Assembly (NCBI GenBank): GCA_003242895.1
Contig: QKMY01000054.1
Location: forward strand, 1 to 64,000
Length of the DNA: 64,000 nucleotides
Reading direction: 5' to 3'
Source: Candidatus Margulisiibacteriota bacterium
Lineage (GTDB): Bacteria > Margulisbacteria > Riflemargulisbacteria > GWF2-39-127
The translations under genes were made by a program, and so were the position numbers. Below, piece after piece: positions 10,772 to 50,285 of this stretch (within the stretch, counting starts at the first letter, position 1; each line of letters opens with the position of its first letter). The notes under the pieces are model-generated. The model did no database searches and was not told where the DNA came from. It was given only the letters and a program-made list of their open reading frames with translations.

Positions 10772-11002
10772 AGACATTGTCAATCCCTAAAACTAAGGGA
10801 CGAGGGATTCCGGTATTTATACAAAATTTAAGTAGTGTCCAGCAACCTTGTCCAGAAAACAAACATCCTTAGCGATGACCGATAGCTCTTGTAATCAAAA
10901 AAAAACCCTTGCCTAGAAGCATTTTACATAAATCATCATAATTGGCATAAAAAATGTTTATTCCTTACCTGAAAACATAAAGTAGCAAAGGAGATGAATC
11001 TA

Positions 11003-11137
11003 ATGAACAAACTCAAACAAACCACATTCAACAAAATGATGGAAAAAGCCAGAACGGAGAAACCAATAATGTCACTTATAAAAATAGAAATGGCATTAGA
11101 TTCAAAAAAAGTAAATCTGCTGCTAAATAATAATTAA
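11003..11137 (+). CDS. 44-aa small protein, copy 1 of a two-member family
   Basis: ATG 11003 is preceded by AAAGGAG and opens exactly 44 codons before TAA at 11135. The product aligns without gaps to the 44-residue product of 49791-49925: 20 of 44 positions are identical, including MEKA at 13-16 (FEKA in the other), P-I at 21-22, S-L at 24-25, D33, KKVN at 35-38 and a terminal NN. Conservation of length, start and frame between two distant loci strongly supports translation. The protein is basic and amphipathic. I do not know the family. It precedes the Hsp20 gene by 82 bases and may be co-transcribed with it. Confidence 0.65.
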   Translation: MNKLKQTTFNKMMEKARTEKPIMSLIKIEMALDSKKVNLLLNNN

Positions 11138-11219: not shown

Positions 11220-11648
11220 ATGTTAACATTATGGACACCAAGACAATTATCAACTTTTGAAAGATTATTCGATGATTTTTTTAAAACCAGCGACCTAAGT
11301 CAATACCATGAAAAAACCTATTCGCCCAATATAAATGTGCGAGAAACAAAAGACAAAGTGATAATAGAAGCGGAACTGGCAGGACTAGAAAAAGAAGCGG
11401 TAAAAGTAAAATTCGAAAACGGCGCATTAAAGATAAGTGGAGAAAGAAAATTCGGGAAAAAGGCACAGGATGAAAAGTACTATGCAGTAGAAATAAGCTC
11501 CGGATCATTTGAAAGGATAATTCCTATCGATGAGAATTTTATCAAAGCTGATACTATAAAAGCTAATTTCAAGAACGGCATACTTACTGTTGAACTCGAT
11601 AAAGCCGAAGAAAAAAAAGCAAAAGAAATTGAAGTTCAAATCTCATAA
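11220..11648 (+). CDS. Hsp20-family small heat-shock protein
   Basis: The 142-residue protein is a typical alpha-crystallin-domain chaperone. It has a short N-terminal arm (WTPRQLSTFERLFDDFF), the alpha-crystallin domain from about residue 38 (NINVRETKDKVIIEAELAGL, then FENGALKISGERK) with the late A-x-x-x-N-G-I-L-T motif (ANFKNGILTVEL), and a C-terminal I-x-V motif (EIEVQIS). It holds unfolding proteins in the cytoplasm. AAGGAGAG precedes the ATG. I see no CIRCE element upstream. Confidence 0.93.
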   Translation: MLTLWTPRQLSTFERLFDDFFKTSDLSQYHEKTYSPNINVRETKDKVIIEAELAGLEKEAVKVKFENGALKISGERKFGKKAQDEKYYAVEISSGSFERIIPIDENFIKADTIKANFKNGILTVELDKAEEKKAKEIEVQIS

Positions 11649-21983: not shown

Positions 21984-22265
21984 ATGAATATTAATACCCA
22001 ATATAGCGAATACGGATATTCATCTAATCTACAAAGAAGTGGAAATACCGAAGAACCCAAACAAATAGAAGCAAAAAAGCCGGAACAGGTACAACCACCC
22101 CAAGAAGAACAAAAAAATCAAAAAGTCGAAGAAATAAAGGAACAAAAAGAAGAAAACATTAAGGCTGAAAACAAAATAAAGCAAATCCAAACATACAACC
22201 CTAACGGTATAGCCACAAAAACTGCATCGCCGGATACCTCATCAACTCAGTCATTCTTTGCATAA
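21984..22265 (+). CDS. Low-complexity Glu/Gln/Lys-rich small protein, 93 aa
   Basis: The start is well supported by AAGGAGGTGA. The protein has a Tyr/Ser-rich N-terminus (NINTQYSEYGYSSNLQRSG), a highly charged Glu/Gln/Lys/Pro middle (residues 23-70, e.g. QPPQEEQKNQKVEEIKEQKEEN) and a Thr/Ser-rich tail ending in SFFA. It is probably disordered or a single coiled coil. I do not recognise a family. Its stop lies about 50 bases before the intron relic, and a small hairpin with a T-rich tail (about 22287-22309) may end the transcript. Confidence 0.6.
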   Translation: MNINTQYSEYGYSSNLQRSGNTEEPKQIEAKKPEQVQPPQEEQKNQKVEEIKEQKEENIKAENKIKQIQTYNPNGIATKTASPDTSSTQSFFA

Positions 22266-22312: not shown

Positions 22313-22464
22313 AATTCATGTCCACAACATATCTGCCAGAGCTTTGCCGCCGACTTCCTTCAGATTCCACCTCACGATGGACACGCTTGTCTTAAGCTAA
22401 CGGTTGCACTATCAACCCCCGTATCGGTTTCACACCGACTAGAAAGCGCCCATGCTGGGCGCAC
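22313..22464 (-). mobile_element. Truncated group IIC intron (5' part of domain I)
   Basis: On the minus strand the sequence starts GTGCGCCCAGCATGGGCGC at 22464, the GUGYG 5' end and first stem of bacterial class C introns. It continues with segments that match the known class C (Oceanobacillus-type) domain I: GTTAGCTTAAGACAAG, CGTGTCCATCGTGAGG, TGGAATCTGAAGGAAG and CGGCGGCAAA. Similarity fades after about 150 bases. No reverse transcriptase, domain V or 3' end is present, so it is a relic. It sits immediately behind the hppA terminator T-tract, the exact target preference of class C introns. Confidence 0.78.
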
Positions 22465-48461: not shown

Positions 48462-49640
48462 TTATGGTTTAAAGTTAATGATAATGTTGGTTACTTCAGC
48501 GATACTGCCAATCCTCATTGGAGGTCCCCAGGTACCTACCCCACAAGAAACATAATAATGCGTTTGACCATCTCTCAAGTAACCCCAGCTTTTTTTGAAA
48601 ATCATATTGGTAATAAAGCTATTCGGGAATAGCTGCCCGTTATGCGTGTGTCCGGATATCTGAAAATCTATTTTATTATTATAAGCATCTTTAAGATTCC
48701 GCGGCTGGTGGTCCATCAGGAGTAAGGGGTAATTTTTGTCGATACCGGTCATAATATCCTGTAACTCTTTTCTTTTCTTTCCTGTAAACCGGAACCGGCT
48801 CGAATCCTCTCTGCCAATCAAATAAAAGCTGTTATTTACCAGCGCCTTTTCGTCTCGAAGGTACTTGATCCCATATTGAGAAAGATAATGCACCGCAGAT
48901 TCAACTCCACCAATATACTCATGATTGCCGGTACTGGCGAATACCCCGAATTTGGACTTAATTGCCTTAAGCTCGTCACCCATATTATATTTAATTACCG
49001 GCGCAAGATCTTCATCAACCACATCACCGGGAAGAAGGACAATATCAGGATTTAGGCTATTCACGGTATCAATAATATGTTTCAGGCGAGAGTTACGGAT
49101 CAAGGTACCTAAATGAATATCACTCACAGCAACGAGATTAAGCGTCTTCAACGTACCCGCCTGCTTGGGTATATCCAACCTGATTGTCGTGACTCTGATA
49201 TTCTTTGAATTAAGGTGCCCAAAAACCGTTAGCGCTGTCACCAAAGCTACGAAAGTCCAAGACCTTAGCAGCATAGTACCGGCTATTCTGGTACCTGGAA
49301 CCAGATGAAAAAAAGTTAGCAAAAAAATGATTACATCGGCAGCTAAAAAAAACAAAAACAGATAATATGCAATTCCTAACCAGAACGAGCCAACCAGAAT
49401 TATCGTCCCACTCACGATACCGGAATTAACACGCTCAATAATCCTCCCTACCAAAAAAGAACTGGCTACCGCTATAAAAGTTATTCGATAAATTAACAGC
49501 CATAAACGATTATTAGGAATGATCGCCAGCAATTTACCGTAGATATAATAATTCACTAAAATGTATAAAAACATTATCAACAAAATTATCGAAATCAACA
49601 TTATGTAATACAGCATATTTTTCATATTTTTTCTTGCCAT
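48462..49640 (-). CDS. Membrane-bound metallophosphoesterase (YkuE-like)
   Basis: The 392-residue protein has about four or five N-terminal membrane helices (residues 8-150) followed by a calcineurin-type phosphoesterase domain. The metal motifs are in order: SDIHLG, PGDVVDE, STGNHEY, LLMDHQP and SGHTHNGQLFP. Related proteins (YkuE, YaeI) act on membrane-linked pyrophosphates or lipids such as UDP-diacylglucosamine. The exact start is uncertain: ATG 49640 abuts AAAGG, while ATG 49625 has it 13 bases upstream. Confidence 0.88.
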   Translation of the reverse strand: MARKNMKNMLYYIMLISIILLIMFLYILVNYYIYGKLLAIIPNNRLWLLIYRITFIAVASSFLVGRIIERVNSGIVSGTIILVGSFWLGIAYYLFLFFLAADVIIFLLTFFHLVPGTRIAGTMLLRSWTFVALVTALTVFGHLNSKNIRVTTIRLDIPKQAGTLKTLNLVAVSDIHLGTLIRNSRLKHIIDTVNSLNPDIVLLPGDVVDEDLAPVIKYNMGDELKAIKSKFGVFASTGNHEYIGGVESAVHYLSQYGIKYLRDEKALVNNSFYLIGREDSSRFRFTGKKRKELQDIMTGIDKNYPLLLMDHQPRNLKDAYNNKIDFQISGHTHNGQLFPNSFITNMIFKKSWGYLRDGQTHYYVSCGVGTWGPPMRIGSIAEVTNIIINFKP

Positions 49641-49790: not shown

Positions 49791-49925
49791 CTAATTATTG
49801 CTGATAAATATATTAACCTTTTTAGTATCAAATACTATTTCCAATTTCATAAGAGATATGATCGGCTCTTGATTAACGGCTTTCTCGAACATCTGGTTTA
49901 TTAAAGCATTATCCTGATTGTTCAT
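49791..49925 (-). CDS. 44-aa small protein, copy 2 of a two-member family
   Basis: The ATG at 49925 follows AAAGGGG by nine bases and opens exactly 44 codons, ending in TAG at 49793-49791. The product aligns gap-free with that of 11003-11137 (20 of 44 identical): shared EKA at 14-16, P-I at 21-22, S-L at 24-25, D33 with KKVN at 35-38, and final NN. A second ATG three codons earlier lies inside the ribosome binding site. The protein is amphipathic, without cysteines. The surrounding 600 bases hold no other gene. Confidence 0.65.
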   Translation of the reverse strand: MNNQDNALINQMFEKAVNQEPIISLMKLEIVFDTKKVNIFISNN

Positions 49926-50285
49926 GGCACTCATCCCCTTTACTTAACCTTACCTATCTTGTATCAACTTTCATGCCAAATATTATCCTGGCTTTTTATC
50001 CCGGATAATTCCTTTCCAGTTTCTTCTAAGAAAATTTTTGGCAATAAGTACTGAATATTCTCTTAGCCACAAGCTCTCTAACTGCCATATTTTCTACATA
50101 ATTAGTTTTTTTGAAAAAACTCGCTGGAATTATCAGGGTTAATAACTGAACATGTAAAGAATTAGAGAAAGCATATCAGTTTCTCCTAAAAATCCTGGAG
50201 AACCAGGCTACAATACCTGCCAAACCTCCATTGACTTTTTTTTATATTAATATATCATAATGCCTGGTCAATTTAGGGAGGGAAA
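49926..50285 (+). promoter_or_regulatory. Intergenic region with promoter of the lipoprotein gene
   Basis: The stretch is otherwise featureless. Near its right end TTGACT (50231-50236) is followed after 16 bases by TATCAT (50253-50258), a good promoter 28 bases before the lipoprotein start codon. GGGAGGG directly precedes that ATG. Confidence 0.5.

Follow-up and report, generated by a model that had tools for sequence, protein, structure and literature searches.

Microprotein families that are narrowly distributed or lineage-specific are common, as catalogued for Enterobacteriaceae (PMC11188072), and that survey suggests that microproteins may act as regulators of neighbouring proteins during stress. 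The small ORFs analyzed here resemble the families of the survey in that they are intergenic ORFs within the range of 15–70 codons and evolve under purifying selection. They differ in lineage and sequence, in the presence of three paralogues in one genome and in encoding soluble rather than transmembrane proteins. The second system for comparison comes from a survey of the sigma-54 regulon, where IbpA-type small heat-shock proteins (sHSPs) are found among the predicted sigma-54 targets (PMC12316311). As for those genes, sigma-54-like -24/-12 elements are present for the hsp20 gene that neighbours one of our small ORFs and for a second hsp20 gene of the same genome. The arrangement differs in that a 44-residue ORF lies upstream of the former, while paralogous hsp20 genes have no such small ORF. 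Narrowly spread small families are routinely missed because they find no support outside their lineage, and paralogy within one genome supplies evidence that cannot be obtained by comparison between species. We know of no sHSP operon that includes a 44-residue upstream ORF.

Coding capacity and paralogy of the small ORFs

The window, i.e. the whole stretch of 64,000 nucleotides that was analyzed, contains two related ORFs of 44 codons. Copy 1 (11003–11137, plus strand) translates into MNKLKQTTFNKMMEKARTEKPIMSLIKIEMALDSKKVNLLLNNN and copy 2 (49791–49925, minus strand) into MNNQDNALINQMFEKAVNQEPIISLMKLEIVFDTKKVNIFISNN, each followed by a stop codon. The preliminary description had placed both ORFs correctly and left the strand of copy 2 unstated; it is the minus strand, and translation of the plus strand of 49791–49925 gave no coding product. 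Translation and alignment bear out the equal length of the two proteins and their identity at 20 of 44 residues without gaps. Each copy also has a ribosome binding site of its own, as had been claimed. Shine-Dalgarno (SD) sequences of the type AAAGG(A/G)G, recognized by eye, lie 9 nt before each ATG, namely AAAGGAG at 10987–10993 on the plus strand for copy 1, which starts at 11003, and AAAGGGG at 49935–49941 on the minus strand for copy 2. In both copies an extra in-frame ATG occurs 9 nt (three codons) further upstream; since it abuts the SD sequence, the start giving 44 residues is likelier. The assertion that both ORFs fall below the usual length limits of gene calling was incorrect, as 44 codons exceed the limit of modern callers (about 30 codons for Prodigal). 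Family members may therefore already be annotated as 'hypothetical protein'.

To relate the two copies, copy 1 was used as a query against the 3.35-Mb genome, which returned copy 2 at E = 6.4e-8. In 100,000 residue shuffles the highest number of identities was 13, so none came up to 20. Among the 227 small ORFs of the window, the pair of equal length that ranked next showed 22% identity. The differences between copies 1 and 2 number 15, 6 and 28 at the first, second and third codon positions, respectively. The NG86 estimates are 0.37 for dN and 2.56 for dS, which gives a dN/dS of about 0.15; as dS is near saturation this value is rough, and its direction is clear. The predominance of substitutions in third codon positions together with this ratio indicates that the proteins are under selection.

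A profile built from copies 1 and 2 detected a third member in the same genome (G000:C19:85017-85127, E = 9.8e-4). The ORF of copy 3 (contig C19, L003 1474-1605) starts with GTG and encodes a protein of 43 residues, VKKGKELVAHILERTLSREPIVVWTKFEFIIDEKKFSFLSNNN. Its SD sequence TAAGGAGG is located approximately 9 nt upstream of the GTG, a spacing similar to that of copies 1 and 2, and its C-terminus is NNN, as in copy 1. Eleven columns are invariant in the three copies (M1, E14, P21, I22, K27, E29, D33, K35, K36, N43 and N44), where the GTG initiator of copy 3 is counted as M. The search with a three-row profile did not find a fourth member in the genome. By the two E-values and the invariant columns, the three copies share common descent. 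The preliminary description had named the lack of any homologue and a dN/dS near one as grounds for rejecting the family; we found a homologue in the same genome and a ratio far below one between the window copies, and the ORF pair thus proved to be a genuine family. These analyses demonstrate that the ORFs are coding, paralogous and under purifying selection, and they are presumably translated in the cell.

Distribution and protein features

No convincing relative was found among the 74 genomes of the phylum that were searched, of which the nearest are seven genomes of the same class. Pattern scans followed by tblastn likewise gave no convincing relative in 85,000 species genomes or in 2.9 million viral contigs; since these scans need exact short motifs as well as confirmation by tblastn, they could overlook relatives with an identity of about 35%. 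Searching plasmids with tblastn resulted in zero matches and searching phages in one, which was not convincing (E = 5). Pfam, NCBIfam and PHROGs do not contain such a family, the profile search of the PDB gave nothing (best E = 1.4), and Rfam gave nothing at the loci of copies 1 and 2. The search in related genomes that had been proposed as a check succeeded within the genome itself, where the third paralogue was found, and gave no orthologues in the 74 genomes of the phylum. The suggestion that the family may be undescribed agrees with the missing matches in Pfam, NCBIfam and PHROGs and with the lack of relatives in the phylum genomes searched. Because no convincing relative was detected in the genomes and databases searched, the 44-residue family is lineage-specific and, as far as the searched libraries show, undescribed.

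The proteins share an N-terminal segment that looks amphipathic and in which positions 8/9, 12/13 and 16 are hydrophobic. It is followed by an E/K-P-I joint, the core K-h-E-h-h-h-D-x-K-K-(V/F), further hydrophobic residues and a terminal N-N. The GRAVY values of the three copies are -0.53, -0.15 and -0.30. None of the three contains a membrane-spanning hydrophobic helix, the core being broken by the conserved K, E and D, and a signal sequence is not evident. AlphaFold2, run on the two-row alignment of copies 1 and 2, predicted helices at residues 3–18 and 21–42/43 with a pLDDT of 76 and a pTM of 0.35. A beta hairpin would be an equally good fit to the alternation K27-E29-h30-h32-D33 / V37-h39-h41, and none of the tests of residue periodicity was significant.

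Genomic neighbourhoods and putative sigma-54 promoters

Copy 1 is followed in tandem, 82 nt downstream on the same strand, by an hsp20 gene (11220–11648, plus strand) encoding an sHSP of 142 residues (PF00011, E = 1.3e-19), and no terminator is predicted between the two. An operon of copy 1 and hsp20 is thus supported as a prediction from the sequence. Downstream of copy 2 lies a gene for a calcineurin-like metallophosphoesterase of the membrane type (48462–49640, minus strand). The gap between them contains a sigma-70-like promoter (11/12), so that co-transcription of copy 2 and the metallophosphoesterase gene is uncertain. Copy 3 has a glycosyltransferase gene on one side and a convergent chemotaxis receptor gene downstream, with no stress gene adjoining and, on its own strand, no gene a short way downstream. 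Overall, the neighbourhoods of the three copies have nothing in common. The genome has three further hsp20 genes, all of which lack the small ORF, and no such ORF was found beside hsp20 in the genomes of the same class.

The sigma-54-like -24/-12 element TGGCATAAAAAATGT (10943–10957, plus strand) lies 45 nt 5′ of the copy 1 ATG and is weak at -12, and the sigma-54-like element TGGCATGAAAGTTGA (49964–49978, minus strand) lies 38 nt 5′ of the copy 2 ATG. The pattern TGGCATRNNNNWTGH has only two matches in the window, each just 5′ of copy 1 or copy 2 and on the correct strand (0.48 expected); the count is post hoc, since the motif was noticed by eye before counting, and 10 of 100 shuffles contained at least two matches anywhere. 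Using a scoring matrix of approximate frequencies, the copy 1 site reached 9.5 bits, with 64 positions of the window scoring 9 or more. By the same approximate matrix the best score upstream of copy 3 is 4.4 bits, which was counted as no site. The genome contains rpoN (PF04552, 138.9 bits, contig C75). The looser pattern TTGGCATRNNNNWTG was not enriched genome-wide (20 matches vs 17 in the control).

The hsp20 paralogue nearest to the one beside copy 1 (46% identity) is located on another contig (G000:C22:54920-55392, L063/L069; hereafter hsp20 C22). As an observation independent of the window motif, it carries a near-consensus sigma-54 site, TGGCATAAAAACTGCT, 50 nt before its ATG. This class of pattern has 7 matches in the genome vs 1 for the reversed control, and only the hsp20 C22 site among the 7 stands directly before an SD sequence and a start codon. 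The site suggests that sigma-54 may govern sHSPs in this lineage. Judged by the -24 GG, the -12 part and the spacing between them, the upstream element is good for copy 2 and hsp20 C22, whereas that of copy 1 is weak at -12 and copy 3 has none. For copy 2 and, more weakly, for copy 1, these elements support a putative control by sigma-54.

An upstream activator motif shared by copies 1 and 2 and hsp20 C22 did not stand clearly above shuffles. Copy 2 is preceded by a pair of related palindromes of the type TTATC-n3-GATAA, TTATCCCGGATAA (49996–50008), approximately 18 nt upstream of the sigma-54-like site, and its partner TTATCAGGGTTAA (50130-50142). Near-matches to the palindrome are over-represented in the window (17 vs 4.8 expected). 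The palindromes are a possible candidate for a sigma-54 activator site, which we treat as a lead only. Elsewhere in the genome, sigma-54-like sites precede a TadE-like gene and a flagellin-like gene (at L030) that starts MNINNISEHSYLP.

Possible roles of the family and other features of the window

We infer that the proteins may act as stress-induced accessory microproteins, two members of which would belong to a sigma-54 stress regulon together with sHSPs (probability about 0.4). The copies belong to a genuine lineage-specific family of small soluble proteins (43–44 residues), and the genome carries three or more of these paralogues at dispersed loci. RNA polymerase carrying sigma-54 probably transcribes two of the three copies, and copy 1 would most likely open a sigma-54 operon of two genes, the second being hsp20. 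The copy 1 product would most likely be made together with the sHSP and bind a larger partner, such as a chaperone, a client or a protease, as a helper or adaptor. The narrower proposal that a 44-residue Hsp20 partner made from a sigma-54 promoter adjusts how the chaperone assembles or hands off its clients, with the paralogues suited to other stresses, is speculative and rather unlikely. The family is a well-supported addition, and its regulatory setting with sigma-54 and hsp20 is testable. If the link to Hsp20 is true, the family would provide a bacterial small chaperone with a partner that is itself a small protein; if it is false, it would be another orphan microprotein family.

The genuine family could instead have a role unrelated to heat shock, for example in regulating envelope or motility functions, as an adaptor in them, or as a small binding protein of a general kind; hsp20 would then lie beside copy 1 by chance. 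This would fit the membrane-type metallophosphoesterase gene after copy 2, the position of copy 3 between glycosyltransferase and chemotaxis receptor genes, the lack of shared neighbours and the sigma-54-like sites before flagellin-like and TadE-like genes, but not the sigma-54-like site that copies 1 and 2 have in common with the separate hsp20 C22. Since the genes around copies 2 and 3 lend no support to a general link to Hsp20, we give the unrelated role and that of a stress helper equal weight. It is improbable that the ORFs are leader peptides or upstream ORFs whose translation regulates the downstream gene and that no trans-acting protein is involved. Copy 1 and copy 2 each come first, ahead of another gene on the same strand, but the amino-acid sequence is conserved at a low dN/dS, and a gene placed in this way is not found close to copy 3. 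That the copies encode a small toxin, an antitoxin or some other product of a mobile element, for which small dispersed paralogues would be typical, is quite improbable given that the hydrophobic membrane segment is absent, that none of the adjoining ORFs is the partner in a known system and that PHROGs, phages, plasmids and viral contigs contain no convincing match.

Two further explanations concern the sequence itself. The core resembles the C-terminal domain PSP1 (PF04468; RicT/YaaT) in the spacing E-x-x-h-D-x-x-K-h after P-I/P-M, and the family could thus be a degenerate or miniature PSP1 domain, with the PSP1 hairpin cut to 44 residues. Copy 1 has a weak match to the Pfam model (13.5 bits, E = 0.094), and the E(+4)D(+7)K spacing is the same in the genome's own PSP1 protein. 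However, the match is below the cut-off of 27 bits and copies 2 and 3 have none, so that only one of three members matches. The full domain spans 86 positions, of which the far shorter small proteins cover approximately 34, and AlphaFold2 gives two helices with low confidence and not a hairpin. PSP1 homology, considered after the sub-threshold Pfam match and the spacing, was rejected by hhalign (probability 1.4%, 18 columns), and we regard this origin as highly improbable. The short length and the K/N-rich, AT-rich sequence would suit a chance likeness of two AT-rich non-coding ORFs, but the shuffle test, the third paralogue, the bias in codon positions and the conserved SD spacing speak against it. 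The statistics make chance similarity very unlikely, to a degree that is close to negligible.

Several other features were observed in the window. An ORF of 93 residues rich in K, E and Q (21984–22265, plus strand) has the strong SD sequence AAGGAGG and starts MNINTQYSEYGYSS. The Rfam model group-II-D1D4-3 matches 22320–22381 on the minus strand with 39 bits, covering 62 bases of a model of 170 positions; the match is probably either spurious or a remnant left by deletion. A long run of energy genes on one strand (22522–43120, minus strand) comprises genes for a proton pyrophosphatase, complex I/hydrogenase-like subunits, a V-type ATPase and an RnfC/Nuo51-like protein.
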